Assembly: GCF_018623035.1 (NCBI RefSeq)
Contig: NZ_CP076023.1
Span: forward strand, 806,001 to 870,000
Length of the DNA: 64,000 nt
Direction of reading: 5' to 3'
Source: Cellulomonas dongxiuzhuiae
Lineage (GTDB): Bacteria > Actinomycetota > Actinomycetes > Actinomycetales > Cellulomonadaceae
This document shows positions 3,119 through 33,874 of this stretch, one piece after another (positions within the stretch are counted from its first letter, which is position 1; each line of letters starts with the position of its first letter). The translations under genes were made by a program, and so were the position numbers. The notes under the pieces were generated by a model. That model was given only the letters and a program-made list of their open reading frames with translations, was not told the DNA's origin and made no database searches.

Positions 3119-3697
3119 TCAGTGCAGCAGCGCGGCCGCCAGCGTGTCGACGGCGGGCGCGAGCTCGTCGTACGACGCCCGGTAGACGGCGTCGGAGCCG
3201 CCGATGGGGTCGGCGACGTCGGTCGGGCCGGATCCGGCGACGTGCCGCACCCCCGCGGCCAGTGCCGGCAGCGCGCGGACCCGGGCGCCGGGCGTGCCAC
3301 CCGCGTCGTGAAGGGCCTGCGGGTCGACGTGCGCGACGAGCCGCGCGAGCTCGAGCAGCGTGAACGTGCGCCGCACCGCACCCGGCACCAGCTCGACGAT
3401 CTCGGAGCGGTGCGTGCGCGTCAGCGCGATGACGAGGTCCGCCTCGCGGATCAGGTCCGCGGTGAGCTGCCGGGCGGCGAACCCGTCGGTCTCGGCCCCC
3501 GCTGCGGCGACCAGCGGGATCATCGGCGCCGACACCGCGTGCCCCACGACCGCCCGCGTCCCGGCGGAGGACACCTGCACGTCAGTCCCCGCGAGGCGGG
3601 CTGCGAGCAGCCGCTCGACGGCGGGGGAGCGGCAGATGTTGCCGGTGCAGACGGCCAGGATCTGGGCAGGTGCGGGGGGCTCGGACACGGTCGTCAT
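3119..3697 (-). CDS. low-molecular-weight protein-tyrosine phosphatase (Wzb-like)
   Basis: A 192-residue protein of the arsenate-reductase-like LMW-PTP fold. The phosphate-binding loop CTGNICRS spans residues 17-24, giving nucleophile Cys17 and Arg23. A DP pair at 163-164 in VADPIGG supplies the probable general acid Asp163. In polysaccharide loci such phosphatases dephosphorylate the C-terminal tyrosine cluster of the Wzc-type kinase, and the intact kinase here lies 3 kb away at 6954. The gene points away from the polysaccharide operon and is preceded by a decayed kinase fragment on its own strand. That suggests it once followed a kinase gene. Confidence 0.9.
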   Translation of the reverse strand: MTTVSEPPAPAQILAVCTGNICRSPAVERLLAARLAGTDVQVSSAGTRAVVGHAVSAPMIPLVAAAGAETDGFAARQLTADLIREADLVIALTRTHRSEIVELVPGAVRRTFTLLELARLVAHVDPQALHDAGGTPGARVRALPALAAGVRHVAGSGPTDVADPIGGSDAVYRASYDELAPAVDTLAAALLH

Positions 3698-4010: not shown

Positions 4011-4239
4011 CGCAGTCATGCTCACACCCGATCTGTGGTCGCGCGAAGGGGTTCGTCGGGGATGTTCGGAGTGCCGCGGGCGAGGCACATCGGGGCGGGG
4101 TCGGGGGTGCGCGCGTCAGGGTGGTGTTCGTGCGTCATGCGGGGGGCGTCGTACCGGGCGGCTCGCCGATGGATAGGATCGCCGCCGGATGCGCCGGGCC
4201 CTATCGCCTGGTGACCGTGCCTCGAAGGGGGCTGCGAGC

Positions 4240-6189
4240 GTGGCTCATCCCGGTTGGGGACCGGAGTGGACGACGCAGCAGATCCCGGTGGTGCCCGAAT
4301 CGTCCGTAAAGCCACGTTCCTCGGGCGGGCGCCCCGCGAAGCGGCGGCGCGGGCGGCCCGCCCGCACGCCGTCACGACGACGACGGGGGCGTAGGCAGTT
4401 GTCGACGGTCGAGATGATGCGCGAGGCGCACCCGCGCCGCCGGGCGGTGTGGCTGACGGTGATCGGGCTGGCGTTCGTGCTCGGTGGGTCCGTGGCGTGG
4501 CTCGGGTGGTCCGCGATGGAGGCCCGCGACGCGCTGCTGGCGGCGCGCACCGAGGTCGGACAGCTGCAGGCCCAGGCCCGTGCCGGTGAGATCGACGACG
4601 CTCGGGCGACCCTGACGGACGTGCAGCGGCACGCGTCGCTGGCGCGGGAGCGGACGTCGGGTCCGCTGTGGGCCGTCGCGGGGGCGCTGCCGTGGGCAGG
4701 GCCCCACGTGGACGCCGTCCGCGCGGTGGCCGAGGCCGTCGACGAGCTCGCGACGCATGCGCTCCCGCCGCTGGTCGAGGCGACGGCTCTCGTCGACCCG
4801 GCGGCGCTGCGGCCGGTGAACGGTCGCGTGGACGTCCAGCCGCTCGCCGAGGTGGCGCCGCAGATCTCCGGCGCCGACACCGCCGTCCGCGCGTCGCTGC
4901 AGCGCATCGAGGACGTCGACACCGCTGGCCTGATCGACGCGGTGGCCGGGCCGGTCGCAGACCTGCGCGGGCAGCTCGCCGAGGTCGCCGCTGACACGGC
5001 GACGGCCTCACGGGCCGCCGCGCTCCTGCCGGCGATGCTCGGGATCGACGGTCCGCGGACCTACCTGGTGCTCGTGCAGAACAACGCAGAGCCTCGTGCG
5101 ACCGGCGGGATCGCAGGGGCCGTGCTGCTGCTGCGGGCCGTGGACGGGCGGCTCGAGGTGCTGGAGCAGCGTCGCGGCGGCGACCTGTCGGGTCTGGCGG
5201 AGCCCGTGGTCACCCTGAGCGACGCCGAGAAGGACCTCTTCGGCCCCTTGCTGGGCACGGACATGCGCGACGTGAACTTCACGCCGGACTTCCCGCGCTC
5301 GGCGCGGATCGCCCAGGCGGTCTGGGAGGCGCAGGTCGGTGGCTCCGTCGACGGGGTTCTCTCGGTCGACCCCGGGGCGTTGGCGCTGGTGCTGGGCGCG
5401 ACCGGCCCGATCATGCTGCCGGACGGCACCGAGCTCAACGCTGACAACGTGGTCCCGAGACTCCTCAACGAGGTGTATCTGGAGCTCGCGGACCCCGTCC
5501 TGCAGGACGAGTTCTTCGCTGCGACGGCAGCGGCGGTGTTCGGTGCCGTCTCGGGCGGGCAGGGCGACCCGGTCAGGGTCGTCGATGCCCTTGCTGAGGC
5601 GGCGCGGCGCGGGCGCCTCATGGTGTGGTCCGCCGACGAGGACGAGCAGGGGCGGCTGAGCGGGACGGTGCTGTCGGGCGAACTCCGGGGGCGCAGCGGG
5701 GACGACGCCGTGATCGGTCTGTACCTGAACGACGGGACCCAGGCAAAGCTCGGCTATTACCTTAACGTGGATGCTGAAGTCAAGGTTCTGGAGTGCCTGG
5801 CGGGTGGTGCACAACGTGTGCGGGTCAGCTCGACCTTCATGTACGCCCCGCCGGATGACGTCGTAGATCTTCCGCGCTACCTGCTGGGCCTGGACGGCAT
5901 CGTTCCCCTGGGCGACTTTCGAACAAACGTGCTGCTGTACGTCCCGGCCAAGGGCTCCTTGGAAGCGGTGCGGGTGAATAACGAGCCGGCGTCTCTGCAC
6001 GCCCAGATCCATGAGGGACTTGCCGTCGGCGCTCTGACCTGGACATTTACCCCTGGACAGGTGTATAAGATGGAAGCGGACATTACGACCGGCCCCGGGC
6101 AAAACGGCACAGTACAACTGCGTACATCGCCCTTGGCTACAGGTTTCGATCATGTTTCCGCGGTTTCAAAATGTGTCGAGGCGCGCTAG
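4240..6189 (+). CDS. DUF4012 domain membrane-anchored protein (copy 1)
   Basis: A protein of about 649 residues. The GTG at 4240 is preferred because GAAGGGGG sits eight bases upstream; an in-frame ATG at 4189 would add 17 residues. The N-terminus is strongly basic (Arg/Lys-rich), followed by one membrane helix, a helical stretch with the motif GALPWAGPHVDAVR, and the large extracellular DUF4012 domain. Hallmarks are GPRTYLVLVQNNAEPRATGG, FPRSARIAQAVW and GGSVDGVLSVDP. The function of DUF4012 is unknown, but it recurs in actinobacterial polysaccharide loci. A paralogue at 29951 shares every one of these motifs. From about 5740 onward codon usage shifts to A/T-ending codons, unlike the first three quarters of the gene. 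A surface protein with an LSATG tail follows 71 bases downstream. Confidence 0.88.
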   Translation: MAHPGWGPEWTTQQIPVVPESSVKPRSSGGRPAKRRRGRPARTPSRRRRGRRQLSTVEMMREAHPRRRAVWLTVIGLAFVLGGSVAWLGWSAMEARDALLAARTEVGQLQAQARAGEIDDARATLTDVQRHASLARERTSGPLWAVAGALPWAGPHVDAVRAVAEAVDELATHALPPLVEATALVDPAALRPVNGRVDVQPLAEVAPQISGADTAVRASLQRIEDVDTAGLIDAVAGPVADLRGQLAEVAADTATASRAAALLPAMLGIDGPRTYLVLVQNNAEPRATGGIAGAVLLLRAVDGRLEVLEQRRGGDLSGLAEPVVTLSDAEKDLFGPLLGTDMRDVNFTPDFPRSARIAQAVWEAQVGGSVDGVLSVDPGALALVLGATGPIMLPDGTELNADNVVPRLLNEVYLELADPVLQDEFFAATAAAVFGAVSGGQGDPVRVVDALAEAARRGRLMVWSADEDEQGRLSGTVLSGELRGRSGDDAVIGLYLNDGTQAKLGYYLNVDAEVKVLECLAGGAQRVRVSSTFMYAPPDDVVDLPRYLLGLDGIVPLGDFRTNVLLYVPAKGSLEAVRVNNEPASLHAQIHEGLAVGALTWTFTPGQVYKMEADITTGPGQNGTVQLRTSPLATGFDHVSAVSKCVEAR

Positions 6190-6260
6190 CCTCGCATTGC
6201 CGGCAGGAGACCACGCGTCACACTGCCGCACACCATGCAGACTTTTGGGGAGCTCAACGT

Positions 6261-6797
6261 ATGAAGATCAGTCGCACGGTCGCCACGGCCGTCATCGCAG
6301 GAGCGCTCGCGCTCGCGCCGACCGCCGCTTTCGCCTACGGCGCCGCGGACTACACGAACACCGGAACGGTGTCGGACACGACTCCGGCTGTGGGTGAGAG
6401 CTTCTCGATCACGGTCGTGGGACCGGGCAACACGCCGGTTGCCCTGACCATCACGAGCAATCCGGCTTCAATCCCGGACTCTGCGATCCAGATCGCTGGC
6501 ACGCGCTCGCTGACCAAGACCACCAACGCGGCTGGAACGGCGGTCTTCACCGTGACGCTCGCACAGGCTGCCACCTACACGGCTGTCGTGACCGACAGCG
6601 TCTCGGGTGAGGTTCTGAGCACTCAGACGTTCAGTGCGTCCGCTACTGCCGGGGGGGCCGCGGCTGCTTCCGGGGGGCAGTTGAGCGCCACGGGCTCGAA
6701 CGCGTTGCCGCTCGCGATGGGTGCCGGTGCGCTGCTGCTCGCGGGTGTAGGTGGCGTGGTCTACGCGAACAGGCGCCGCCAAGGCGCTGGCGTCTGA
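6261..6797 (+). CDS. secreted surface protein with LSATG sortase-like tail (copy 1)
   Basis: A 178-residue protein; the ATG at 6261 is preceded by GGGGAG at seven bases. An Ala-rich signal peptide ends near AAFAYG. The mature part is a beta-rich, Ig-like domain of about 100 residues with Thr/Val/Ser alternation (for example VGESFSITVVGPGNTPVALT). The C-terminus has a short Gly/Ala linker, then LSATGSN, a hydrophobic helix and the tail ANRRRQ. This is a classic wall-sorting arrangement with Ser in place of the Pro of LPXTG, close to the LAXTG signal used by actinobacterial class E sortases. No sortase gene is in the window. It pairs with the DUF4012 gene upstream, as the gene at 31898 does with its own. 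Confidence 0.8.
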   Translation: MKISRTVATAVIAGALALAPTAAFAYGAADYTNTGTVSDTTPAVGESFSITVVGPGNTPVALTITSNPASIPDSAIQIAGTRSLTKTTNAAGTAVFTVTLAQAATYTAVVTDSVSGEVLSTQTFSASATAGGAAAASGGQLSATGSNALPLAMGAGALLLAGVGGVVYANRRRQGAGV

Positions 6798-6953: not shown

Positions 6954-8531
6954 GTGGATCTTAGGGACTATCTGGAAGTGGTCCGAAAGCACTGGCTCTC
7001 CACCGTCGCTATAGCAGCGTTTGGAGCGTCAGCGGCACTTGTGGGGAGCATTCTGACTACGCCCGTCTACGTATCGACGACACAACTCTACGTGTCCGTT
7101 CAGAGCGGTAGCACGACAAGTGACATGTTGCAGGGTGCCAATTTCACCCGCCAGCAGGTCTCGTCCTATGCCCGCCTCGTCACAAGCCCGTTGGTGCTCG
7201 CCCCCGTCATCGACGAACTGGCTCTTGATACGCGCGTAGACACGCTGGCGGCGCGGGTGACAGCCGAGTCCCCTCTTAACTCGTCCCTGATCAATATCGG
7301 CGTCAAGTCAGAATCCAGCGCGATGTCGGCGGCGACCGCAAACGCAATCGCGGACCAATTTCGCGCGGTGGTCAGCGAACTCGAGCGCCCGAATGACGGA
7401 GGGCCTTCCACTGTCAAGTTGACGGTAGTGCGGACTGCAGTCGCGCCTGAAGCTCCGACAGAGCCGAAGACAACAATTAATGTCCTCCTGGGCGGTCTGG
7501 TGGGTGCCGCCCTCGGGGCGTTGATTGCCCTACTTCGCAATCTGCTCGACACCCGAGTTCACGATAGTTCCGTTGCCTCTCAAATCGTCGACGCATCGGT
7601 CGTGGGAGTGATCGGCTTCGACAGTGACGCGGCGGATAGTCCGCTCATTGTACAGTCAGACCCGCACAGCCCCAGAGCCGAAGCATTTCGAAGACTTCGC
7701 ACAAATGTGCAGTTCCTGGGGGCTGGAGGGCGGCGAAAGTCGATCGTTGTTGCCTCGTCCTTGCCGGGCGAGGGTAAATCGACAACCTCAATCAATCTGG
7801 CCATCGCCCTGGCGGACGCCGGCGTCAGGGTCGCGTTAGTAGACGCCGACCTGAGGCGCCCCTCAGTCGCACGCTACCTAGGTATCGAAGGTTCTGCCGG
7901 CCTGACAACGGTACTGATAGGACGCGCAAAAGTGGGGGACGTCATCCAGCCATGGGGCAATGGCCTACTGGACGTGCTCCCCTCGGGCCAGATCCCTCCG
8001 AACCCGAGCGAGCTGCTCGGCTCGAAGCAGATGGCCCAAGTTGTGGCATGCCTCGAGGAGACGCACGACCTCGTCTTGATCGACACCCCGCCTCTGCTTC
8101 CCGTGACTGACGCAGCCGTGCTTGCCAAACTCGCAGGTGGAGCCCTCGTCGTTGTCGGCGCCGGCCGGGTGCGTCGCCAGCAGCTCAGTGAAGCCATAGC
8201 CGCATTGAACAGCGTCGACGCGCACGTGCTGGGCCTGGTCGTCAATCACGAACCGCGTCGTACTGGATCGGGCTATGACTACTATCGCTATGCTGAAATG
8301 TCCGGTCCGCAGAAGTCCGATGCGAGGCGGCATACGGGAAAGCGCAACCAGCGGGGCTGGGGCCGCCGAAACAGCGCGCCGGACACGAACCGTGTAGCTG
8401 GCATTGTCCCGCCGGGTGACGTAGGAACAGGTCACGCAGGGACAGCTTGGCCTCCGACGCAGCCGCTGGGCGGTGTCGACGCCGCCGGATCGAGTCCATC
8501 GCCAGCGCAGCACGCGCAAACCACTCACTGA
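6954..8531 (+). CDS. polysaccharide co-polymerase / tyrosine autokinase (Wzc-like BY-kinase)
   Basis: A 525-residue fusion. The Wzz chain-length domain runs from 1 to about 200, with membrane helices near 15-35 and 176-194. A BY-kinase ATPase domain spans about 235-435. Walker A is SSLPGEGKST (268-277), Walker A' is VALVDADLRRP (293-303) and Walker B is LVLIDTPP (373-380). A tyrosine cluster, YDYYRY at 441-446, is the likely autophosphorylation site and is followed by a disordered tail. In Wzx/Wzy systems this protein controls polymer length and export and cycles with an LMW-PTP, here the gene at 3119. It opens the polysaccharide operon. Its codon usage is markedly less GC-biased than the flanking genes, suggesting acquisition by transfer. 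Confidence 0.93.
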   Translation: MDLRDYLEVVRKHWLSTVAIAAFGASAALVGSILTTPVYVSTTQLYVSVQSGSTTSDMLQGANFTRQQVSSYARLVTSPLVLAPVIDELALDTRVDTLAARVTAESPLNSSLINIGVKSESSAMSAATANAIADQFRAVVSELERPNDGGPSTVKLTVVRTAVAPEAPTEPKTTINVLLGGLVGAALGALIALLRNLLDTRVHDSSVASQIVDASVVGVIGFDSDAADSPLIVQSDPHSPRAEAFRRLRTNVQFLGAGGRRKSIVVASSLPGEGKSTTSINLAIALADAGVRVALVDADLRRPSVARYLGIEGSAGLTTVLIGRAKVGDVIQPWGNGLLDVLPSGQIPPNPSELLGSKQMAQVVACLEETHDLVLIDTPPLLPVTDAAVLAKLAGGALVVVGAGRVRRQQLSEAIAALNSVDAHVLGLVVNHEPRRTGSGYDYYRYAEMSGPQKSDARRHTGKRNQRGWGRRNSAPDTNRVAGIVPPGDVGTGHAGTAWPPTQPLGGVDAAGSSPSPAQHAQTTH

Positions 8532-8586
8532 CGCGGATGGATGCGTTCAGGAGATGTGGAGCTCACTCTCACCAGGCGGCGCTGAT

Positions 8587-9744
8587 ATGAGCAGCGCGGC
8601 GGGCCCAAAGACCGTCCTCGTACACGAGTGGCTTTCCGAGTTTGGCGGTTCAGAGCGGGTCTTCGATGCTCTCGTTGCGGCAATAGGTGATGCTGACGTC
8701 CTTGCGTTGTGGGACGACGCGTCAGGCGGGCGCTATCCGGGCAGACGCCTGCGCGAGACATGGCTGGCGAGCACACCGCTGCGACGCAATAAGGCCCTGG
8801 CGATGCCGCTGATGCCACTGACCTGGCGGCTGCGGCGAGGCGACTACGACCGCGCCGTCATCAGTTCGCATGCGTTTGCCCACCATGTGCGCTTCATGGG
8901 CGCCAGGCGCCACCTACGAAAATTCGCCTACGTCCACACGCCCGCCCGCTATGTGTGGACTCCTGATCTGGACCGGCGGCACAGCGTTCCGTTTCAATCA
9001 CTACTCGCCCGGCCGTTTCGCGCGCTCGACAAGAGCCGGGCGCAGGAAATCTACTCGATCGCTGCCAACAGCGAGTACATTCGTAGCCGCATACAGCAGT
9101 GCTGGGGTCGCGCATCCCATGTCATCTATCCTCCGGTCGACACGGAACTCATCGGATCGCAGACAGACTGGGCATCACTGCTTGCGCCTCAGGAAGCGGA
9201 GATTCTGAACGGCCTACCGGACCAATTCCTTCTAGGTGCGTCGCGTCTGGTGCCATACAAGCGGCTGGATATGGTCATCCAGACGGGCGAACAATTGAGT
9301 ATGCCGACCGTTATCGCGGGGGGCGGCCCTGAAGCAACCAAACTCGCACTTGCGGGGGAGTCAGCGCGGCAGGAAGTGTTCATGGTGCCGGATCCCTCTG
9401 ACGCGCTGCTGTACTCGCTGTACCAGAGGGCCTCTGTCCTGATGTTCCCGCCGATCGAGGACTTCGGGATTATGCCCGTCGAGGCGCTCGCTGCAGGCAC
9501 GCCCATCGTGGTGAATCCGCGCGGGGGGGCCGCGGAGATTCCCGAGCACGGCGTCTCCGGCGTCGTGAGCGCCGGCGATGATGTCGGGAGCTTCGCAGTC
9601 GCAGTAAAGCTGGCGCTGACGCTCGACCGACAGGCCTGCAGGGATCGGGCGTCGCGCTTCTCCACGTCACGGTTCATCTCAGAGATAGACCAGTGGCTGG
9701 ATATGCCGGCTCCGGACAATGAGTACCGGGCTCGTCGGGCATGA
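8587..9744 (+). CDS. glycosyltransferase family 4
   Basis: A 385-residue retaining GT-B glycosyltransferase. The ATG at 8587 is chosen because it is preceded by an AGGCGG-type site and lies after the kinase stop; longer in-frame starts would overlap the kinase gene. The N-terminal domain opens with VLVHEWLSEFGGSERVFDAL. The C-terminal GT1-fold nucleotide-binding domain includes LLGASRLVPYKRLDMVI and the EX7E-type stretch EDFGIMPVEALAAGTPIV. It should add one sugar from a nucleotide-sugar donor to the lipid-linked repeat unit on the cytoplasmic face. The specificity cannot be read from sequence. Its last four bases overlap the next gene (ATGA). Confidence 0.88.
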   Translation: MSSAAGPKTVLVHEWLSEFGGSERVFDALVAAIGDADVLALWDDASGGRYPGRRLRETWLASTPLRRNKALAMPLMPLTWRLRRGDYDRAVISSHAFAHHVRFMGARRHLRKFAYVHTPARYVWTPDLDRRHSVPFQSLLARPFRALDKSRAQEIYSIAANSEYIRSRIQQCWGRASHVIYPPVDTELIGSQTDWASLLAPQEAEILNGLPDQFLLGASRLVPYKRLDMVIQTGEQLSMPTVIAGGGPEATKLALAGESARQEVFMVPDPSDALLYSLYQRASVLMFPPIEDFGIMPVEALAAGTPIVVNPRGGAAEIPEHGVSGVVSAGDDVGSFAVAVKLALTLDRQACRDRASRFSTSRFISEIDQWLDMPAPDNEYRARRA

Positions 9745-10718
9745 GTGATTCAAGGAGCATCAGCGGGTGTTCCGTCGTGCTCGTCGTGAACTACCGATCA
9801 TCTCACGAGATAGCCCACCTCGTAGATTCAATTGTTGAATGTACGCCACTCGGTCAGCTGGAGAAGCTGTCGCTCTCTGTAGCAGATAACAGTGAGGACC
9901 CCACGGAGTTTCGCCAGCTGGAGAAGATAGCCCTGAGGGCCAAGCTCGGTGGCCTGGCGATGCACCTCACGGATAGCCGGGGCAACCTCGGATACGGAGC
10001 AGGCAACAATCTGGCTTGGAGTGTGATCAAACATCTCACACCCGATGTTGTCATTGTGGTCAACCCCGACGTGCGTGTGCTGAGGTGGGACCTTAGCCGC
10101 GTTCACGACACGCTGCAGCGCGCGCCGGGAAGAATGCTGGGGGCTCCGACGCTGCAGGGCGACCGCTACAGCGGACTGTCAATGCTTGAAATCCGAACCG
10201 CGAAGTCGGTCCCAGTCAAATGCGACCACCTGGCAGGTGTGGCAAATGCGAGCGGGCTGCTGTACCCGGGCGGACACTTCCTGGCGATGAGTTCACGGCT
10301 CTGGGACGCGATGGGCGGTTTCGATGAGAAGTACTTTCTGTACTGTGAGGAAATTGATCTAGTAATGCGAGCGAGCCGCCACAAATTGTTCTCTCGGGTT
10401 GCCTCGAGCGAGGACGTGGCCGTAGCTCACAACGGCGGCGTCACGACCGGCGAGGTTGTGCACGGTAAGCGCGTCCCATCACGGCTCGCAGCGATGGAGG
10501 CATTCCGGAGCCGAGTTCTGCTCTATCGGGCGCATCGGCCGTTGCGTCCATGGTTGCCAGCGCTGGTTCTCACCCGGTCCGCCTACATACTGCTCGACCT
10601 TCCCAATACGGGCGCGGACGTTGCGTGGGCGAGGGTTCGCGGGTTGGTCGCGGGACTCTTGGGGCGGTCACGCCGGAGCCCAGGGATCGTACGGGAACTT
10701 CCGGAGCCATCGTGGTGA
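9741..10718 (+). CDS. glycosyltransferase family 2 (rhamnosyltransferase-like)
   Basis: A 325-residue inverting GT-A enzyme. It starts with VVLVVNYRSSHEIAHLVDSI and carries the nucleotide-binding motif VNPDVRV. Downstream, GGFDEKYFLYCEEIDLVMRA is the acceptor/catalytic-base segment typical of WbbL-like rhamnosyltransferases. The C-terminal 60 residues are amphipathic and hydrophobic, probably a membrane-association segment. It is translationally coupled to the preceding GT4 by an ATGA overlap and to the following polymerase by a GTGA overlap. Rhamnose specificity is a family-level guess; no dTDP-rhamnose genes are in the window. Confidence 0.87.
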   Translation: MSDSRSISGCSVVLVVNYRSSHEIAHLVDSIVECTPLGQLEKLSLSVADNSEDPTEFRQLEKIALRAKLGGLAMHLTDSRGNLGYGAGNNLAWSVIKHLTPDVVIVVNPDVRVLRWDLSRVHDTLQRAPGRMLGAPTLQGDRYSGLSMLEIRTAKSVPVKCDHLAGVANASGLLYPGGHFLAMSSRLWDAMGGFDEKYFLYCEEIDLVMRASRHKLFSRVASSEDVAVAHNGGVTTGEVVHGKRVPSRLAAMEAFRSRVLLYRAHRPLRPWLPALVLTRSAYILLDLPNTGADVAWARVRGLVAGLLGRSRRSPGIVRELPEPSW

Positions 10719-12019
10719 CGACCGCGCTGGCACTCACGGCCGTGGCGATCATGCTCGTATGCGTCGCAGCCTTCGGCCGCCTGAACTTATTCTCATTAGT
10801 TCTGGTCGGGTCGCTTCCCGCTGCGGTGGGCGTTTATCAGATGTCTTCTGAGCGTGGCACCGGAGTGGCTGGGGCGAGTGCCTACATTGGCTGCCTAGTC
10901 GCATTCGCAGCGGGCTGGGCGGTCATGCGGACAATAGCGTGGCGTGCATCTCCGCGGGTTACGGAGCAGCCTGCGTCGGATCGCCCGGGGCTCAACGACA
11001 ACGCAGTTCTAATTACCGTGCTCGTGACAGCCGCGCTTGCTCTGTACCATCTAGCACGGGCCGGTATTCCGCTGTTCGCATCAGACATCGAGGTCTCGCG
11101 CTTCGACTTTACGTCATCTGGCTTGTTCGGCATACCCGGGCGCATGTTCCTTTTTGGCACCTCCGTAGCGTGGGCGTTTGCCACCGCCAGCGCACAGCAT
11201 CGCGGCGCCGTATGGATCCGAGACAGGACGTGGTGGGTGGCGACGCTGTCCCTCGCCCTGACGTCGCTCCTGGGGGGGTACAAGAGCGGCGCAGTTGCGT
11301 TCGTGACTACCTTGATAGTGATGGGCAGCATCGTCGCTGGTCGGGAAATCCGCATATCGACAGCAATACGGAAGTTCTGGTGGATGGCGGGCGCAACCCT
11401 CCTCTACGCGTTCGCTGTCGCACAGAGGTACGTCACCTACCAGGTGCAGGCCGGCGGCTTCCTATCTCAGCTAGCGAGCCGACTTTCTGTTGTCGGTGCA
11501 GAGCCCAAGTGGTACGCCGTAGAGCGTCAGTTCGAAGTTCCAGCGAACGGCTTCTGGAATGATCTGACCTACTATCTGATTCGGTACACCGGAGGCGACA
11601 CGTCCGGCAGGTACTCGATCGAGAGAGCGGTGTCGGCCGCGATGATTGGTGCCGACCCGGCGAGCGACGCTTGGACGACCCCGGTGACCGTCGGCGCCTT
11701 CCCCGAGTTGATTCTGGTGCTCGGCGTTCCCCTGGCGGTGGTAAGCGCGGCATTGGTTGGCGTCGGCGCGGCAAGTCTCTATGTGCGTGCCCCGCAGGGT
11801 CCGGCCCGGAATGTTGTGATGGCGGTCGTCGGCCTCGGTCTATCGACGTGGGTCTCCCGCGGCGGCCTGGTCTACTATATTGCTAATTACGCTGCTGTAA
11901 CGGTCATACTCTTTGGAGTTTATATTGCGGCTGCGGCGTTGGGCAGCCGAATAGATGTGCGATCCCCAGAACGGCCAGGTCGGGCGTTCCGGACGGAACC
12001 AATGACGGGGTTGAAATGA
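10715..12019 (+). CDS. O-antigen/exopolysaccharide repeat-unit polymerase (Wzy-like)
   Basis: A 434-residue integral membrane protein. The GTG at 10715 overlaps the previous stop as GTGA, with a CGGAG site upstream; longer in-frame starts lie inside the preceding gene. About ten or more hydrophobic helices are visible. A long extracytoplasmic loop in the second half contains the YLIRYTGGDTSGRYSIERA stretch. The motif AGIPLFASDIEVSRFDF after the third or fourth helix matches oligosaccharide-repeat-unit polymerases. Wzy proteins are poorly conserved, so the call rests on topology and on sitting between glycosyltransferases and a flippase. It should join undecaprenyl-linked repeat units at the outer membrane face. 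Confidence 0.8.
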   Translation: MTTALALTAVAIMLVCVAAFGRLNLFSLVLVGSLPAAVGVYQMSSERGTGVAGASAYIGCLVAFAAGWAVMRTIAWRASPRVTEQPASDRPGLNDNAVLITVLVTAALALYHLARAGIPLFASDIEVSRFDFTSSGLFGIPGRMFLFGTSVAWAFATASAQHRGAVWIRDRTWWVATLSLALTSLLGGYKSGAVAFVTTLIVMGSIVAGREIRISTAIRKFWWMAGATLLYAFAVAQRYVTYQVQAGGFLSQLASRLSVVGAEPKWYAVERQFEVPANGFWNDLTYYLIRYTGGDTSGRYSIERAVSAAMIGADPASDAWTTPVTVGAFPELILVLGVPLAVVSAALVGVGAASLYVRAPQGPARNVVMAVVGLGLSTWVSRGGLVYYIANYAAVTVILFGVYIAAAALGSRIDVRSPERPGRAFRTEPMTGLK

Positions 12020-13092
12020 CGCAGATCACGGCGCTCTCGAGCGCCGAGGACCCTTGGGGTGCGGAGCAGAGTCTGGCGCTGATTCTCGGTGAGTTGGCGG
12101 CCGGAGGCATGCACTGCACCATTATCGTCTCCAGTGATGCCGCCGAAGAATTCTTCGGCCGAACCGCGGGTGTGTCAGTTGTGAGGGTGAGCTACCGCGA
12201 CAATGCGCGGGTCGCGCGTTGGGTGGCTTTCCTCCGAGCAATGCGTCGCACGGGCCGCGCAGATGCGATCATCGTTGCAAGCGTCGACCTCTACATCCTT
12301 GGCTGGGTGTGCCGGCTTACCAGCGGTGGCTCCGCCAACGTGATCGCGGACCTGCACGACACGTTTGATCGTGGCATCGACCGTTGGAAGGTCCGCGCCC
12401 TACTCTTGGGGTTCAGTAGGGTTATCGCGATCAGCCGGTATGTGGCTACGGAGTTACGGCTGTTGGATCACTGCAGGATTGTCGGAAGACCGACAGACAA
12501 AACAGCATGGTCAGGCAGTGAGCCCGGAGTTGGTGGACAAGCGCTGCGCGTGGGCGTTGTGGGGCGGCTTGTGCCTGAGAAGCGCCTTGAGGTGGTCATC
12601 GAGGCATTTGATCGCCTGCCACAGGCCGAGTTGCACGTCTACGGTGCGGCGTTTGGGCGTGACGAGGGATACGCGGCGCGTATCGTGCAAGAGATACAGG
12701 GCGCCGGGAAGGGTCATTTCTACCATGGCCGGCAGGAGGCAGCCGTCATCTACTCGTCGATCGACGTCCTCGTTGTAGCGAACGAAACGGAGGCAAGCGG
12801 CCGGACGGTGGTCGAGGCGATGTCGCGAGGCGTGCCAGTAGTTGTCCCAGATGTGGGCGGTGCTTCCGAGTACATCGTGGCGTGCCCGGGCGGCGGTATT
12901 ACATGGAGTACTCGGCGAGGTCCTGCTGCGTTACGCGAGTGTATAGAGATCTTGGCCGGCGACCCCGACCGCCTCCGCAGCATGGGCGTGGCGGCTCGGG
13001 CTTGGGCCAATGCGGAGCGTTCACCCACTGTGGTGGCGCGGATGTACGCGGCCGCGATCGGTGTGGGCGGAGACTTGGGAGAGGCCGGTTGA
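12016..13092 (+). CDS. glycosyltransferase family 4
   Basis: A 358-residue GT-B enzyme, ATGA-coupled to the polymerase gene. The N-terminal domain begins ITALSSAEDPWGAEQSLALI, a donor/acceptor glycine loop with a short acidic insertion. The C-terminal domain has VGVVGRLVPEKRLEVVIEAF and the retaining-transferase signature ETEASGRTVVEAMSRGVPVV, with the EX7E spacing (Glu to Glu eight residues later). It probably adds an internal sugar of the repeat unit. Codon usage is as in the neighbouring low-GC genes. The stop overlaps the flippase start by one base. Confidence 0.87.
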   Translation: MTQITALSSAEDPWGAEQSLALILGELAAGGMHCTIIVSSDAAEEFFGRTAGVSVVRVSYRDNARVARWVAFLRAMRRTGRADAIIVASVDLYILGWVCRLTSGGSANVIADLHDTFDRGIDRWKVRALLLGFSRVIAISRYVATELRLLDHCRIVGRPTDKTAWSGSEPGVGGQALRVGVVGRLVPEKRLEVVIEAFDRLPQAELHVYGAAFGRDEGYAARIVQEIQGAGKGHFYHGRQEAAVIYSSIDVLVVANETEASGRTVVEAMSRGVPVVVPDVGGASEYIVACPGGGITWSTRRGPAALRECIEILAGDPDRLRSMGVAARAWANAERSPTVVARMYAAAIGVGGDLGEAG

Positions 13093-14357
13093 TGCAGGGG
13101 AGAGCGCCTCACGGGCAAGGGGTTGCGCGGGTGTTACGAGTCGGCTGGCTCACCAGCGGGTACGGTGCCTCGGCCCTCGTCACTGCAGTAGGGAGCCTCG
13201 CGGTCGTTCCGCTTCTTACGCAAGCAATCGGCCCTGCTTCGTGGGCGGAGCTGGTCGTCGGGCAGGCTGTCGGCGCGATGTGCGCCGTGGTCAGCACCTG
13301 GGGATGGGGAATGGTTGGACCCGCTGCCGTAGCTGGCGCACCGCATGGTGAGAGGCGCGCAGTCTTCCGGACGTCTATGCTCGCGCGGGCGTTCCTTCTG
13401 CCCGCGGCGGTGGGCGTGGGCGTTCTTGCCGTGGCGTTGATGCCCTTCAGTGACCCTGTCGCCGTGGGCATTGTTTGCCTGGCAGTTGCGCTCCAAGGCC
13501 TCACGTCTCCCTGGTATTTTGTCGGAGCGGTCGCACCAGGTCGCCTGCTGGTGCTTGACACGATCCCTCGCACAGGCTTTGCGTTCGCGGGCGCGGTCGT
13601 CTCAGCGCTGACAGGCAACGCGGTTCCCTACGCGCTTTCTGTGCTGGCCGGGGTCGGTTTGACAATCGTCCTCACATGTCTATATGTGTGGCGTACGACG
13701 CAACGCCTTCCTATGCGATCGCTGAGCGATGAAGCGTCAGCCGCCCTCAGTTCCATCGTGGGTCAGCGGCATGCCGTAGCAACGGCGGCTGTCGCCGCGT
13801 TGTACCTCATAATGCCGCTGGCACTGATGCCGTGGATCGCACCTGCGGTGGTTACTCAGTTTGCATTGGGTGATCGACTGTTGAAGTGGTCGATTACTGC
13901 AGCGGCACCGTTCACGCAGTTCCTCCTGGGGTGGGTGCCGCGTAGGTCCGCAGCTCCGTCGCGACGCGGGATCGTGGGCATTGCAGGTGCGGGCGCCCTG
14001 GGCTTCACTGGGGCGATAGGTTTGGTTCTGCTCGGCCCATCGATCGCACGCACCTTGACCCATGGGACCGTTGATCTGTCGCGAGAAGCATGCTTCGCTG
14101 TGGGTGTCTGCGTCCTGATGACGTCCATCACGCGGGTGAGCGGCCCGGCGGTTCTGATTCCTGGAGGACGCGTCAAGTTGGTCTTCACAAGCGCAGTCTT
14201 GGGGGCCGTCACCTGCGCAGTAGCCATTGTGCCCCTGACGCTCGCCCACGGATATACCGGTGGCCTCTGGGCAATAGCTCTCGCCGAGACGGCGGTCTGC
14301 GTTCTCCAACTGGGCGGCCTCTCGCATGGCAGGCGCGGCGGGATCGCGGGAGCATGA
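13092..14357 (+). CDS. polysaccharide repeat-unit flippase (Wzx-like, MOP superfamily)
   Basis: A 421-residue membrane protein with about 12 predicted helices and short loops. It begins VLRVGWLTSGYGASALVTAVGSLAVVPLLTQAIGPASWAE, the usual N-terminal two-helix pattern of MOP-type flippases. The ATG at 13092 overlaps the previous stop codon (TGATG); an upstream in-frame extension lies in the preceding glycosyltransferase and is not used. It should translocate undecaprenyl-pyrophosphate-linked repeat units to the outer face for the polymerase at 10715. Confidence 0.87.
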   Translation: MQGRAPHGQGVARVLRVGWLTSGYGASALVTAVGSLAVVPLLTQAIGPASWAELVVGQAVGAMCAVVSTWGWGMVGPAAVAGAPHGERRAVFRTSMLARAFLLPAAVGVGVLAVALMPFSDPVAVGIVCLAVALQGLTSPWYFVGAVAPGRLLVLDTIPRTGFAFAGAVVSALTGNAVPYALSVLAGVGLTIVLTCLYVWRTTQRLPMRSLSDEASAALSSIVGQRHAVATAAVAALYLIMPLALMPWIAPAVVTQFALGDRLLKWSITAAAPFTQFLLGWVPRRSAAPSRRGIVGIAGAGALGFTGAIGLVLLGPSIARTLTHGTVDLSREACFAVGVCVLMTSITRVSGPAVLIPGGRVKLVFTSAVLGAVTCAVAIVPLTLAHGYTGGLWAIALAETAVCVLQLGGLSHGRRGGIAGA

Positions 14358-15430
14358 TGACCCAGAAGCGCCCATTCGTCGCCGCCGTGGTGACGTACGG
14401 CGCGCGTACGGAGATGGCACTTCGCCTCCTGGAGCGGTTGTGTGCTGAAGATGTCGGCGGCCTGATTCTCGTCCTGAACGGGAGTGCACTTGCGGCGGAC
14501 GACGCGCGACGCGTCGTGGATCAGCGACTAGCAGTGCACACCGAAGTGGTCGATCTTGGGGCCAACGGAGGATCTGCGCGCGGCTTCGCAGGAGCAATCG
14601 CGACAGCGCGGGCGAAGTTTGCCGGAGTAGACCTGCTGCTGCTCGACGACGATGCTGTGATCGAGAACGGGATGATGGGCGAGTACCGTCGGCACGCACA
14701 CGACTTGGGCGTCATGACCGGCGGCCTCTTCGCGTTTGCTCCCTTTAATCCCTCAAACGAGCCCCAGGCGAAGGTCGTCTCCGATGGAGTACCCGCGCCG
14801 AGAGCGTTCGCGGTGGTACGTCCGGGCTGGTTCGAGGGATTTGACATTCGCGACCGCATCAAATGGGCACAGCGGGAATCGTCAAGGACCAACATGGCCG
14901 CCGGTCTCGACGGGAGGGGGCTCGAAGCGCGTTGGCTTTCGATACCCGTGGCGCCTTACGGCGGTCTCTATCTCTCTGCGCACGCCGTGGCAACCGGAGT
15001 CTCGCCAAACCCCGACCTCGTCCTATACTTCGATGACTATGACTTCACCTTACGTCTTCGCGAGGCCGGCGTCGGCCTCTACCTGCAGGCAGCTCTGAGG
15101 ATGACGACCCTCGAGGACGGGCGGAAGGCGGCAGGGCCCTCGTCTTTCACTGGTCGCGCGGTCTCGACACCCCGGCGTGAAGAGTGGCGGGTATTGTATA
15201 GGGTTAGGAACACGGCCTATGTCCAGCGACGGATAGCAGGTTCGGCGGGTGTCCGTGCTCGATTCGCAGTGAACCTCCTGATTCGCTCGGCCGCCTACCT
15301 GGCATATGGTTTTGCTTTGGGCCGGCCCGCTGCCGGGATCCGCGCTGTGGCCGCTATCTCGGCGGGCCTGCGCGGCCGTTTGGGGCCCTCGTACTCGCTC
15401 CCGGGCCTGGCGTACGACTTGGAGGATTGA
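14354..15430 (+). CDS. glycosyltransferase family 2 (GlfT-like)
   Basis: A 358-residue GT-A enzyme, ATGA-coupled to the flippase. The N-terminal nucleotide-binding region reads AAVVTYGARTEMALRLLERL, followed by DLGANGGSARGFAGAI and the metal-binding acidic cluster LLLLDDDAVIENG. The later YFDDYDFTLRLREAG carries the probable catalytic base. This pattern resembles galactofuranosyl- and rhamnosyltransferases of actinobacteria, but the sugar cannot be assigned. The C-terminal region has two hydrophobic stretches. Confidence 0.86.
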   Translation: MMTQKRPFVAAVVTYGARTEMALRLLERLCAEDVGGLILVLNGSALAADDARRVVDQRLAVHTEVVDLGANGGSARGFAGAIATARAKFAGVDLLLLDDDAVIENGMMGEYRRHAHDLGVMTGGLFAFAPFNPSNEPQAKVVSDGVPAPRAFAVVRPGWFEGFDIRDRIKWAQRESSRTNMAAGLDGRGLEARWLSIPVAPYGGLYLSAHAVATGVSPNPDLVLYFDDYDFTLRLREAGVGLYLQAALRMTTLEDGRKAAGPSSFTGRAVSTPRREEWRVLYRVRNTAYVQRRIAGSAGVRARFAVNLLIRSAAYLAYGFALGRPAAGIRAVAAISAGLRGRLGPSYSLPGLAYDLED

Positions 15431-15434
15431 GTCG

Positions 15435-16676
15435 ATGTCGAGCGAGCGGGAATCTTCGAAGCGGATGCGAGTAGTGTCCGTCACCCAATTTGCCGGGTAC
15501 GCGGGCGTGCCACACGCTGGCGGTGAGTTCGTATATCGGCACTATCGTGTTATGCAGGAGTTCGCAGACATCCGTGCGTTTGCATCGGCGGGAGAGGTTG
15601 CACTGGCGTCGGCTGGCACGGGCGAGATGAGCAGGGTTTATCAATCGCTCTGGCGGCGGCCCCAGCGACGATTCGGTCGGGTACTGGACTCGACATGGAA
15701 GGCCCTGAGAGGCGTCAGCCTCGGCCTGTTTGCGGAACTCGCGGCGAACCGTTCACGCGTTTTTGCTCTCGCATGCTCAGACGCGGACATTGTAGAACTC
15801 CAATGGACAGAGGCCGGTGCCCTCTGCAGGTCTCGCCGCTGGCGTGGCACGGGGAAGCCGACAGTTATCTTTGTGCACGACGTCCTGTTCCAAAGGTGGT
15901 CCCGTAGGGCGAGCGCGGCCGGTTCCCTTCTTGGCATGGCCTACTATAGGGTGCGGGAATTACAGGCGCGGCGGGCCGAGCGGGACATCTATGCCGATGC
16001 GCGCGCCATTATAGTATTCTCTGCAAAAGACCAGGCGCTGATCGAGGGGATTGCGCCGTCGGCGACTGTGCATGTTCTTCCTCCGCCCCTGGGTGCCGTC
16101 GGGGGGCGACATTCCCACACTCTCAGAGTCAACGCCTCGGGGCGCAAGACGGTGCTCTTCACAGGTGCTATGAGTCGTCCCGAGAACGACCAAGGAGTGC
16201 GCTGGTTCTTGGCGAACGTTTGGCCCGGTGTCAAGCAGCGTGTCCCCCTTGTCGAGTTTTGCATTGTTGGCGCAAATCCATCCGAGAAGCTTCTTGCGTC
16301 CGCAGCGGGGGATCCGTCGATCCGAGTCGTCGGGTTTGTCGAGTCGCTCGAGGAATCCTACGCCAGCGCGGACGTATTCGTGGTTCCCCTTCTGTCCGGC
16401 GCGGGTGTCAAGTTCAAGACAGTCGATGCGATGTTGCGCGGCATCCCGCTTGTGGCCACAACGATTGGCGCCGAAGGAGTCGGTGACAATGATTTGTACG
16501 TGGGCGTCACGGACTCTGCTGAGAGTTTTGAGGATGCTGTTGTAGAGGCGCTTTTGTCGTCGGCGTCTCGTGATGTCGCGGCACGGGCGAAGGAGTGGGC
16601 CCGGCGTGAGTACGATCCATCGAGGTACGCACAGCGGCTGCGCGAGATCTACACCACTCTCCTGTCTTCTCGATAA
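15435..16676 (+). CDS. glycosyltransferase family 4
   Basis: A 413-residue GT-B enzyme; the ATG at 15435 lies four bases after the previous stop. The N-terminal domain begins MRVVSVTQFAGYAGVPHAGGEFVYRHY and contains DIVELQWTEAG and VIFVHDVLFQRWSRR. The C-terminal domain has VLFTGAMSRPENDQGVRWFL and ASADVFVVPLLSGAGVKFKT. In this last motif Gly replaces the usual Glu-rich stretch, as in GT4 enzymes with the GTGIRLKI-type donor loop. It is the last gene of the forward polysaccharide operon and faces the convergent acyltransferase. Confidence 0.86.
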   Translation: MSSERESSKRMRVVSVTQFAGYAGVPHAGGEFVYRHYRVMQEFADIRAFASAGEVALASAGTGEMSRVYQSLWRRPQRRFGRVLDSTWKALRGVSLGLFAELAANRSRVFALACSDADIVELQWTEAGALCRSRRWRGTGKPTVIFVHDVLFQRWSRRASAAGSLLGMAYYRVRELQARRAERDIYADARAIIVFSAKDQALIEGIAPSATVHVLPPPLGAVGGRHSHTLRVNASGRKTVLFTGAMSRPENDQGVRWFLANVWPGVKQRVPLVEFCIVGANPSEKLLASAAGDPSIRVVGFVESLEESYASADVFVVPLLSGAGVKFKTVDAMLRGIPLVATTIGAEGVGDNDLYVGVTDSAESFEDAVVEALLSSASRDVAARAKEWARREYDPSRYAQRLREIYTTLLSSR

Positions 16677-16806
16677 CTGTGCCGCGCGTGCAGCCCAGGC
16701 GATTCAGCGTGTTCCTGACGGAGGTAATAACGGTTGGCATCGTTATGGCGGAGCTGATGCGCGACCGGCGCGTCACCCGCTGCTCGAGTTTTACCCTAGG
16801 CCGGCA

Positions 16807-18069: not shown

Positions 18070-19575
18070 TTACCTTGCGCCTTCGGCTGCCATCATGGCC
18101 CGCGCAGTGCGTATGATGATGAGAATATCACCGAACAGGGTCCAATTCTCCACGTAGGCCACGTCAAGTCGCATGGCCGTGCGTGGGTCGAGGTTGGAGC
18201 GCCCCGATACTTGCCAAAGTCCGGTGAGGCCAGGTTTGACGAGGAGCCTGCGGTGGGCGGCGCGATCGTATGTTGCGACCTCCGCAGCGATCTGGGGCCG
18301 GGGGCCAACCAAGCTCATGTCACCGCTCAGAACGTTGAAGAGCTGCGGCAGTTCGTCGAGGGAGTAGCGCCGCAGTACGCGGCCGATCCTGGTGACTCGC
18401 GGGTCATTCCTGGGCTTGTAGAACGCGCCGACGCTCCCGACGCCCTCAGCCGCAAGCACTTCAGCCAGGCGGTCGTGGGCACCCACCTGCATGGAGCGGA
18501 ACTTGAGCATTCGGAACGTCTTGCCGTCCTTGCCGATCCGCTCCTGCGCGTACAGGACGGGCCCGCGGCTCGTCGTGCTGACGAGGATGGCAAGCATTAG
18601 GAGGAGCGGAGCGACGAGCACGGTGATGACGGCGGCTCCGGTCCAGTCGAAGAGGGACTTCACTACGTACTTGGACCCTCGGAACTGCGGAGCGTCGACG
18701 TACATGAGCGGAAGGCCGTTGACGGGCTGCATGAGGACGCGGGGGCCTGCGACGTCGGTCAGCGAGAGAGTGAGCGCCAGGTCGATGCCTGTGCCCTCGA
18801 GGTCCCAGCCGAGACGTCGGACCACATCGCCCGTCATGGCATCGGAGCCGGCCACCGCCACGGCCGTGACGCCGTGGCGCTTCGCGAGGTCCGCGGCCTC
18901 GGCGTGCGTCCCGAGCACGGGCACGCCGCCGATCTCCTTCACGGCCGGCTGCGCGCCCTCCGGCAGGCAGACGCCCACGACCATGTAGCCGGCTCGCGGG
19001 TTGCGGTGGAACTCGCCGATGAGCGACGCGGCCTTATGCCACGGGCCGATGACCAGCACGGGATGCCGGTCCATACCCGCGTCGCGGCGGCGGTGCAGCC
19101 GCTTCCGCCAGGCCGCGCGGCTCAGCAGCAGGAGCACGAGCCCGAGGGGTGCCGCGATGCCGAGGTACCCGCGACCGATCTCCATCCGGAAGAGGAATGC
19201 CACGACGGCAACACCTGCGAACAAGTGCCACGTCACCTCGAAGACTCGTGAGAACTCCGCCGGGCCGGCACCCATGAGGCGCCGGTCCCGGGTGCGGCCG
19301 ACCGTGAGAACCGTGAACCACGCGAGGAGCAGGGTGACGGAGACGGCGAGGTAGCTGGGGGAGAACTCCCCGGACACCAGGACGGGGCCTTCGTCGAGCG
19401 GGAACCGCACGGCATACGCCACTCCGACGGCAACCGCGACGGCCGCCACGTCGGTGATCGCCACCCGGTTCGCGTGTGCCGCGACCCATGAGGTGTCGCG
19501 CGGAATGTCGCGCAGCGCGCCGGGCGGCTGTTGGTGACCGGTCGTGACCGCGCCGTCGCGCGTCGTCGACGTCAT
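18070..19575 (-). CDS. initiating sugar-phosphate transferase (polyprenyl glycosylphosphotransferase, WcaJ/WbaP type)
   Basis: About 501 residues; the ATG at 19575 follows GAGGGGG at nine bases. The N-terminal part has four membrane helices and a Rossmann-like CoA-binding-type domain ([19 protein letters not shown]). A fifth membrane segment near [20 protein letters not shown] leads into the bacterial sugar transferase domain. Its catalytic features are [40 protein letters not shown] and [16 protein letters not shown]. It transfers a hexose-1-phosphate to undecaprenyl phosphate, the first step of repeat-unit assembly. Codon usage is closer to the host chromosome than that of the glycosyltransferase block. 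Confidence 0.92.
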
Positions 19576-24688: not shown

Positions 24689-26014
24689 GTGCGCATCTCG
24701 GTCATCGGTTGCGGGTACCTCGGGGCGGTGCATGCAGCCAGCATGGCGTCCCTCGGGCACGACGTGGTGGGGATCGACGTCGACGCCGACAAGGTCGCCC
24801 GTCTCGCGGCGAGCACGGCGCCCTTCTACGAGCCCGGCCTTCCCGAGCTGCTGGCCGAGGTGTCCGGCACCGGCCGCCTCACGTTCACCACCGACATGGC
24901 GCAGGCCGCCGGTGCGCAGGTGCACTTCCTGTGCGTCGGGACGCCGCAGAAGCACGGCGAGTTCCGCGCCGACCTCAGCTACGTCGAGTCGGCGTTCGAG
25001 GCGCTGCGCCCGCACCTCGCGCCGGGCGACGTCGTCGCCGGCAAGTCCACCGTGCCCGTCGGGACCGCCGAGGACCTGGCCGCGCGGCTCGTCGGCTCCG
25101 GTGCCGTGCTCGTCTGGAACCCCGAGTTCCTGCGCGAGGGCTTCGCGGTGCAGGACACGCTGCACCCCGACCGCCTGGTCTACGGCCTGCCGACGGACGA
25201 CGAGGGCGTCCCGACGCCCGACGGTGAGGCGGCCCGCGCGCTCCTCGACGAGGTCTACGCGACGCCGCTGGGGGAGGGCACGCCGCTCGTCGTCACCGAC
25301 TACGCGACGTCCCAGCTGGTCAAGGTCGCCGCCAACTCGTTCCTCGCCACCAAGATCTCCTTCATCAACGCCATGGCCGAGCTGTGCGAGGCCACGGGCG
25401 CCGACGTCACGAGGCTCGCCGACGCGATCGGCTACGACGCGCGCATCGGCCGCAGGTTCCTCAACGCGGGCCTCGGCTTCGGCGGCGGGTGCCTGCCCAA
25501 GGACATCCGCGCGTTCATGGCCCGCGCGGGGGAGCTGGGCGTCGACCAGGCGCTGTCGTTCCTGCGGGAGGTCGACGCGATCAACATGCGTCGCCGCGTC
25601 CGGATGGTCGACCTCGCGCGCGAGGTCAGCGCCGGCTCGATCGTCGGCAAGCGCGTCGCCGTCCTCGGTGCGGCCTTCAAGCCGAACAGCGACGACATCC
25701 GGGACTCCCCGGCGCTGTCGGTGGCCGCGCAGATGCAGCTGCAGGGCGCGCACGTCACCGTGACCGACCCGCAGGCCGTCGAGAACGCGCGGGTCAAGTG
25801 GCCGGACCTCAAGTACGCGGCCAGCGCGCTCGAGGCAGCGCAGGACGCCGATGTCGTCGTGCTCGCCACGGAGTGGGACGAGTACCGCAACCTCGGCCCC
25901 GACGAGCTCGGGGAGGTCGTCGCCCACCGCGCGATCGTCGACGGTCGCAACGTCCTGGACCCGAAGGCGTGGCGCGGGGCCGGGTGGACGTACCGGGCGC
26001 TCGGGCGTCCCTGA
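24689..26014 (+). CDS. ugd: UDP-glucose 6-dehydrogenase
   Basis: A 441-residue NAD-dependent enzyme that oxidises UDP-glucose to UDP-glucuronate. The GTG at 24689 follows GGGGGAG at six bases, and translation opens VRISVIGCGYLGAVHAASMA, the GxGYxG dinucleotide loop. The catalytic cysteine is Cys268 in FGGGCLPKD. The C-terminal substrate domain has KRVAVLGAAFKPNSDDIRDSPAL. The protein is full length and in host-like codons, so it is probably functional. It is the only nucleotide-sugar enzyme in the locus still intact, suggesting the polymer contains glucuronate or a derivative. Confidence 0.95.
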   Translation: MRISVIGCGYLGAVHAASMASLGHDVVGIDVDADKVARLAASTAPFYEPGLPELLAEVSGTGRLTFTTDMAQAAGAQVHFLCVGTPQKHGEFRADLSYVESAFEALRPHLAPGDVVAGKSTVPVGTAEDLAARLVGSGAVLVWNPEFLREGFAVQDTLHPDRLVYGLPTDDEGVPTPDGEAARALLDEVYATPLGEGTPLVVTDYATSQLVKVAANSFLATKISFINAMAELCEATGADVTRLADAIGYDARIGRRFLNAGLGFGGGCLPKDIRAFMARAGELGVDQALSFLREVDAINMRRRVRMVDLAREVSAGSIVGKRVAVLGAAFKPNSDDIRDSPALSVAAQMQLQGAHVTVTDPQAVENARVKWPDLKYAASALEAAQDADVVVLATEWDEYRNLGPDELGEVVAHRAIVDGRNVLDPKAWRGAGWTYRALGRP

Positions 26015-31834: not shown

Positions 31835-31897
31835 CCGGGGGGCTGCCGGGGCGAAGATGATGAGGACGAAATGTCCGATTCGACCGTGGGAGCCACC

Positions 31898-32605: not shown

Positions 32606-33808
<1,203 letters not shown>

Positions 33809-33874
33809 CTACCCTGGGCGCAGCACGCGGCGCGGGTGTACCCGGCCGTTCGACGCGACGTGGGAGGCCGAGCG

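Follow-up and report, generated by a model that had tools for sequence, protein, structure and literature searches.

A stretch of 64,000 nucleotides (nt) from the chromosome of Cellulomonas dongxiuzhuiae (positions 806001-870000 of the single 3.98-Mb contig; hereafter the window) carries two genes for DUF4012 (PF13196) proteins, each followed by a gene for a small secreted protein with a C-terminal LSATG sorting signal. Such DUF4012 genes are linked to sorting-tail neighbours far above chance, and since the DUF4012 model contains a predicted core of the LytR-CpsA-Psr (LCP) type, polymer anchoring is the leading candidate function. By analogy, DUF4012 may move lipid-linked polysaccharide onto its partner protein, which sortase would tie to the cell wall; the probability of this reading is put at about 0.4. 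The new point is the predicted LCP core of DUF4012, for which the Pfam entry PF13196 states no function.

DUF4012 genes beside sorting-signal and polysaccharide genes

The PF13196 matches at 4240-6189 and 29951-31792 scored 167.4 and 146.4 bits, respectively (Pfam gathering cut-off 28), and no third copy was detected at E <= 0.001 in a search of the whole genome. The two proteins, DUF4012-A and DUF4012-B, are paralogous, with 37% of 499 aligned positions identical (E 5e-71). Downstream of each, on the same strand and after a gap of ~70-105 nt, lies a gene for a signal-peptide protein that ends in LSATG, a hydrophobic helix and an arginine-rich tail; significant alignment between partner A and partner B is confined to a 33-residue tail (67% identity). 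An earlier note on this DNA had described two pairs of the same order and strand (4240-6797 and 29951-32602), paralogous DUF4012 proteins, and partners alike in their tails with differing bodies, all of which was borne out. The survey of actinobacterial DUF4012 neighbours that it proposed likewise yielded a rate well above chance, as detailed below.

Of 296 genomes sampled from the class, 138 contain DUF4012. Neighbours were counted in a genus/order set (60 fetched stretches, including four weak matches: the LCP genes L071-L073, and L070 of no assigned identity) and in a class set (60 stretches, mostly one per genus, hand-picked among the matches listed, ten of them from the window's order). 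Of 112 DUF4012 genes having at least 1500 nt of room downstream, 63 are followed within this distance by a same-strand open reading frame (ORF) that encodes both a signal peptide and a sorting tail, versus 9 of 1106 other genes; one class positive (L151) is a spurious short ORF, and two of the nine control matches (L034, L049) represent extra sorting-tail genes near DUF4012-A. Under a strict rule (partner start within 500 nt, length 80-480 amino acids), partners were found for 46/56 genes of the genus/order set and 15/56 of the class set, versus 4/1296 control genes. Regrouped by kinship, these counts amount to 53/66 in the order and 8/46 in the rest of the class; the ten order members of the class set contributed seven strict partners. 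A relaxed rule (signal peptide and any transmembrane tail) returned 21/56 in the class set versus 25/1296 controls, with L147, L149 and L154 looking spurious on reading. Among the strict-rule misses, reading revealed additional candidates whose tails are degenerate or whose genes are convergent (for instance L127, L136, L144, L158), and others with nothing similar. At L136 (10546-11955), two convergent genes beside DUF4012 encode proteins that have a signal peptide, a C-terminal helix and a basic tail, an arrangement that escapes the counts.

A strict partner was also present in 66/79 named loci. These were the 80 top-ranking of 489 (79 distinct) in similarity to a DUF4012 alignment (A2); the count is not independent, because these loci overlap the genus genomes and are best-similarity picks. 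Named loci with a partner include Actinotalea, Sanguibacter, Georgenia, Cellulosimicrobium, Oerskovia, Isoptericola, Arthrobacter, Frigoribacterium and Promicromonospora; among those without, two have no downstream room (L214, L256) and two a degenerate tail (L202, L226). Outside the class, ten readable loci of twenty chosen were judged by eye rather than by the strict script, and in three of these (L319, L320, L322) DUF4012 is followed at ~550 nt or less by a short ORF whose product terminates in LPRTG, LPVTG or LAATG. A lineage habit without common function, i.e. an adhesin gene kept by chance beside a capsule operon, would fit the concentration of the pairing in one order; in view of sorting-tail partners beside DUF4012 in other orders and outside the class, and of the low control rate, this explanation appears very improbable.

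At least one of the window's phosphatase, Wzz/kinase and priming transferase had a homologue in 39/60 DUF4012 stretches of the class search, including 34/50 outside the order, and in 0/20 control stretches located elsewhere in 20 of the same genomes. Distant polysaccharide genes may have been missed in these counts, because the queries came from the window alone.

Predicted fold and conserved residues of DUF4012

The AlphaFold2 (AF2) model of DUF4012-A (4522-6186; predicted local distance difference test, pLDDT, 91.2) displays the alpha-beta-alpha core of LCP proteins and, beyond it, a long helical stalk and extra beta domains. In a VIA-align fold search, the 22 best rows all covered the LCP-like core, 21 of them being LCPs by sequence profile, and Actinomyces oris LcpA (structure 5v8c) was among the best matches. 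The LCP family PF03816 had no match at E <= 1 in either DUF4012 protein (hmmscan), and a search of the window's genome with it retrieved just two genes, both at 2.66 Mb. According to the model, DUF4012 is thus LCP-like in fold, and it is not a member of the LCP family by sequence or catalytic motif.

Across 176 non-redundant DUF4012 sequences (model numbering), no exception was seen at E190, G196, G209, Y319 or K409, whereas R192 is retained in 172. The motif N-x-A-E-x-R-x-x-G-G occurs in 197/207 DUF4012 proteins vs 0/31 LCPs. Conversely, S-x-PRD was found in 24/31 LCPs vs 0/207 DUF4012 proteins, an RSDT-like motif in 21/31 vs 1/207, and an RxR-like motif in 29/31 vs 9/207, the RxR patterns differing slightly; the PRD arginine and both RxR arginines are invariant in an alignment of 11 LCPs. 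Since the LCP arginines are not conserved while the E/R/Y/K set is, DUF4012, if an enzyme, would use a different set of residues. DUF4012 could alternatively be a non-catalytic LCP-fold binder of lipid-linked polymer that aids export or chain-length control, with the partner as a scaffold at the surface exit. Such a binder would agree with the absence of conserved PRD and RxR arginines, the long stalk with extra beta domains and the frequent proximity of a Wzz/kinase gene; it is nevertheless unlikely, given that invariant E190, Y319 and K409 with near-invariant R192 resemble an active site or a binding site under tight constraint.

Partner proteins and the proposed route to the wall

Both partners have the sequence features of sortase-anchored proteins, namely a signal peptide, an LxxTG-type motif, a hydrophobic helix and a positively charged tail. 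Profile scores were 16.6 and 13.5 bits for PF00746 (below the cut-off of 20), 18.2 bits for TIGR01167 LPXTG_anchor with partner B (the only partner above its cut-off, 15.9), and 21.7 bits for the LAVTG sorting domain NF058582 with partner A (below the cut-off of 27). The genome encodes one class E sortase (NF033747, 242 bits), one of class F and one class F-like (below cut-off, partial sequence). LAXTG-type tails are reported to be recognized by class E sortases (PMC5148588).

The AF2 model of partner A (mean pLDDT 79.7, predicted template modelling score 0.58) comprises a signal peptide, an immunoglobulin-like (Ig-like) domain forming a beta-sandwich at ~33-128 (pLDDT mostly ~90-96), a flexible linker and a C-terminal helix at 148-175. 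In 42 partner-A homologues (of 62 candidates), invariance is limited to Met1, Tyr26, Gly116 and the sorting-motif Gly, with Tyr26 located between signal peptide and Ig-like domain. Two tyrosines are invariant among 29 partner-B sequences: Tyr46, which is flanked by two conserved Cys near the N-terminus, and Tyr72. In a crude test, a Tyr lies within 8 residues of the predicted cleavage site in 58/68 named partners vs 97/531 other secreted-like proteins (23 controls without predicted cleavage site left out); the ten misses mostly reflect apparently bad cleavage-site predictions, with L233 as a clear exception. A tyrosine near the mature N-terminus as acceptor is speculation from these alignments. 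The partner might instead hold polysaccharide non-covalently through its Ig-like domain, with DUF4012 handling the same polymer separately. This would agree with the predicted Ig-like domain and the Foldseek matches of partner A, which are mostly general beta-sandwiches without functional lead; no carbohydrate-binding Pfam family matched partner A in the Pfam scan and the invariant Tyr outside the folded domain would be left unexplained, making non-covalent holding quite unlikely.

In the favoured reading, DUF4012 would act outside the cell as an enzyme tethered to the membrane, its core being of the LCP type and its active site altered. It would take finished polysaccharide off its polyprenyl-pyrophosphate carrier and, before sortase anchoring, transfer it to the product of the adjacent gene, the small surface protein, perhaps at the invariant Tyr near the mature N-terminus of that protein. 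Class E sortase would then join the partner to peptidoglycan through the LSATG/LAxTG tail, leaving the polysaccharide wall-anchored through a protein; module A (DUF4012-A with partner A) may serve the polysaccharide of the variable locus, and module B a more constant one. Phrased more broadly, glycopolymer transferases of the LCP fold could comprise a second class, DUF4012, in which E, R, Y and K take the place of the LCP arginines in a rewired active site. In many actinobacteria, this class would attach Wzx/Wzy-type capsules to a dedicated carrier protein anchored by sortase, possibly on a conserved Tyr; taken as a whole, this proposal is tentative and rather doubtful.

Several known systems resemble parts of this scheme. 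Actinomyces oris LcpA glycosylates the neighbouring sortase-anchored GspA (PMC6381275, PMC7831098) and requires the LCP arginines R149 and R266 (PMC6381275). As there, the DUF4012 genes adjoin genes for proteins with sorting signals; unlike LcpA, DUF4012 has no conserved equivalents of R149 and R266 and carries the additional stalk and beta domains, and whereas the GspA glycan is still undefined (PMC7831098), a polysaccharide locus adjoins module A. With the LCP ligases TagT/U/V and Cps2A, DUF4012 shares a modelled alpha/beta core, an extracytoplasmic position by topology and linkage to polymer genes; it differs in lacking S-x-PRD, RSDT-like and mostly RxR-like motifs and perhaps in having a protein acceptor where a partner exists. 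In the capsule/exopolysaccharide (EPS) cluster of Bifidobacterium longum 105-A, the DUF4012 protein BL105A_0406 is listed as 'auxiliary protein' between priming transferase and Wzz (PMC5412050), a polysaccharide setting as in the window; the passages on it give no enzyme role, fold or anchored partner. Streptomyces ChpC, a class E sortase substrate, has an LAXTG-type tail (PMC5148588), whereas the tail motif of the window partners is LSATG, and their linkage is to DUF4012 and polysaccharide genes. Other DUF4012 passages comprise one report as a biofilm co-expression hub and another that repeats the auxiliary-protein listing and notes its spread. A full-text literature search, with most subscription papers outside its scope, brought up no mention of PF13196 and, in the DUF4012 passages found, none of an LCP relation or an anchored partner.

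Several results weigh against transfer to the partner by an LCP-like enzyme. Foldseek gave a single match at E <= 0.001 (TM-score 0.23 for the model and 0.43 for the target, root mean square deviation 6.9). Comparison of narrower DUF4012 alignments with LCPs by hhalign yielded E 0.015 and 0.043 at 1-3% probability (13% at best in global mode), and the PDB sequence-profile search (alignment A3) gave no LCP, its best match (E 0.0099) being a coiled-coil construct. Conserved arginines are absent near the expected PRD place (maximum 0.32) and RxR helix (maximum 0.34), both places being inferred from strand order rather than residue-level superposition; because the PRD and RxR arginines have no conserved counterpart, the activity of DUF4012 may differ or be absent. 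As the domain of partner B is unlike that of partner A, a common acceptor mechanism is not evident. Outside the order, 38/46 sampled DUF4012 genes have no adjacent strict sorting-signal gene, so that the pairing is not obligatory and the partner cannot be the sole acceptor everywhere. Moreover, no credible partner was found in 9 of 77 named loci having room downstream (L207, L217, L223, L232, L237, L240, L250, L251, L254), spanning Georgenia, Serinibacter, a Nanopelagicales metagenome-assembled genome, Marmoricola, Aeromicrobium, C. bogoriensis and Nocardioides.

The main rival is that LCP-like DUF4012 ligates polysaccharide straight to peptidoglycan like classical LCPs, the partner being a docking or spacing accessory rather than the acceptor. 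It would accommodate the predicted LCP core, the lack of an adjacent strict partner in most sampled DUF4012 genes outside the order, where 34/50 loci still contain polysaccharide homologues, and the remoteness from the locus of both LCP genes of the window's genome (one genome; in G008 an LCP gene lies ~25 kb from DUF4012). Against direct ligation stand the strong and specific pairing within the order, where partner families are inherited together with the enzyme, and the non-conservation of the LCP catalytic arginines; it is on balance somewhat unlikely. The suggestion of the earlier note of a two-component wall-display or polymer-anchoring module has the backing of the linkage survey and the predicted core, though not as an obligatory pair outside the order; its remark that the module appears undescribed holds for the anchored partner in the DUF4012 passages, and less so for DUF4012 itself, an EPS auxiliary protein in print (PMC5412050), and for the LcpA-GspA analogue (PMC6381275).

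Modules A and B in their chromosomal setting

By partner, the 46 genus/order pairs divide into 29 of family B, 13 of family A and 4 others. In the enzyme tree, 29/29 B enzymes form one clade (support 0.75) and 12/13 A enzymes another (support 1.0). The partners are hence two fixed pairs in the genus, each DUF4012 clade with its own partner family, and not one freely varying slot; the proposed combination of a conserved enzyme-like protein and a variable anchored partner has to be amended in this respect. Partner B was found in 38/40 genus genomes (extra weak matches inside very long ORFs in three) and partner A in 16/40 (two of these via weak matches alone, in ORFs of ~711 amino acids). In genomes searched both ways, 29/34 strong partner-B matches lie beside DUF4012; G001 and G016 cannot be judged, as DUF4012 lies at a contig end, and three are exceptions (G004:C5:1054300, G025:C25:7528 and G032:C1:1308299). 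Of 19 partner-A matches in these genomes, 12 lie just downstream and four just upstream of DUF4012, one is of undecided position and two are weak matches elsewhere. A second Ig-like, partner-A-related gene just upstream of DUF4012-A was noticed at G007:C1:785059, G017:C1:468525, G021:C5:275810 and G023:C5:530846.

Type A loci have the phosphatase within ~5 kb in 12/13 cases, and the neighbourhood of copy A further includes Wzz/kinase-like, glycosyltransferase, priming transferase and acyltransferase genes (Table 1). Type B loci have a DtxR-like homologue 2-5 kb downstream (29/29) and usually UDP-sugar dehydrogenase and major facilitator superfamily genes upstream; this neighbourhood, including serC, is kept also in genomes where copy A was not found. 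The names SerC and DtxR for the downstream genes are our assumption. Module A is thus part of a variable polysaccharide locus and module B of a conserved chromosomal neighbourhood. Two same-strand DUF4012 copies 15.7-25.6 kb apart occur in 9/36 genus genomes, the window included; for the window itself, the description of the pairs as flanking the polysaccharide locus is apt, and from synteny and partner distribution its layout amounts to a polysaccharide locus with module A beside conserved module B.

Table 1 Features of the window
Feature	Position	Strand	Basis
DUF4012-A: N-terminal transmembrane segment, helical stalk, predicted LCP-like core, C-terminal beta domains	4240..6189	+	PF13196 E 3.7e-49; AF2 model; start uncertain 4189-4414 (4189, 4240 and 4414 each possible)
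DUF4012-A predicted LCP-like core, model residues 175-381	5044..5664	+	
N-x-A-E-x-R-x-x-G-G motif, model residues 187-196	5080..5109	+	E190 176/176, R192 172/176, G196 176/176 non-redundant relatives
Invariant Tyr, model residue 319	5476..5478	+	176/176
Invariant Lys, model residue 409	5746..5748	+	176/176
Partner A: signal peptide, predicted Ig-like domain, LSATG sorting signal	6261..6797	+	Sequence; AF2 model
Partner A Tyr26, directly after signal peptide	6336..6338	+	Invariant in 42 aligned partners
Partner A LSATG	6681..6695	+	Sequence; NF058582 below cut-off
DUF4012-B	29951..31792	+	PF13196 E 1.1e-42
Partner B: secreted domain (Cys and Trp conserved), LSATG tail	31871..32602 (start possibly 31898)	+	TIGR01167, sequence
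Partner B LSATG	32498..32512	+	Sequence
Low-molecular-weight protein tyrosine phosphatase adjoining module A	3119..3697	-	PF01451 E 2.7e-22
Wzz chain-length determinant fused to P-loop (BY-kinase-like) domain, adjoining partner A	6954..8531	+	PF02706 E 8.5e-11, PF13614 E 1.3e-11
Polysaccharide-locus glycosyltransferase genes	8587..16676	+	Pfam scan
Two genes without Pfam match within the glycosyltransferase stretch, putative Wzy/Wzx role	10715-12019, 13092-14357	+	
Priming glycosylphosphotransferase (Bac_transf)	18070..19575	-	PF02397 E 1.5e-63
UDP-glucose/GDP-mannose dehydrogenase, commonly upstream of module B within the genus	24689..26014	+	PF03721 E 3.9e-53; synteny
serC-like aminotransferase (-) and DtxR-like gene (+), downstream of module B	32606..34564	-, +	PF00266 for aminotransferase; DtxR-like homologue in 29/29 type-B loci

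The gene caller used for the window misses genes in the polysaccharide region. Scores of the glycosyltransferase stretch at 7000-17900 are poor under a codon model derived from high-GC genes; a cassette that was exchanged while its two ends stayed conserved would agree with this. A GDP-mannose dehydratase/epimerase-like gene at 23123-24143 (+) appears split across two frames (PF16363 positions 16-107, then 126-273) and may be broken or misread. Secreted proteins resembling the CAP/SCP type, recognized by eye, are encoded near the modules at 1925-2704 (+), 26024-26581 (-) and 38033-39211 (+).

Many soil actinobacteria carry DUF4012 beside capsule genes, often together with a small wall-anchored protein, which suggests a way of fixing the capsule to the wall. 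The predicted LCP core together with the linked anchored protein makes the fixation of actinobacterial capsules and exopolysaccharides testable genetically and biochemically. The relevance may extend to bifidobacteria, where DUF4012 is part of a capsule cluster studied for host interaction (PMC5412050). If the proposed transfer to the partner is true, capsules would be held to the wall via a protein instead of directly on peptidoglycan.

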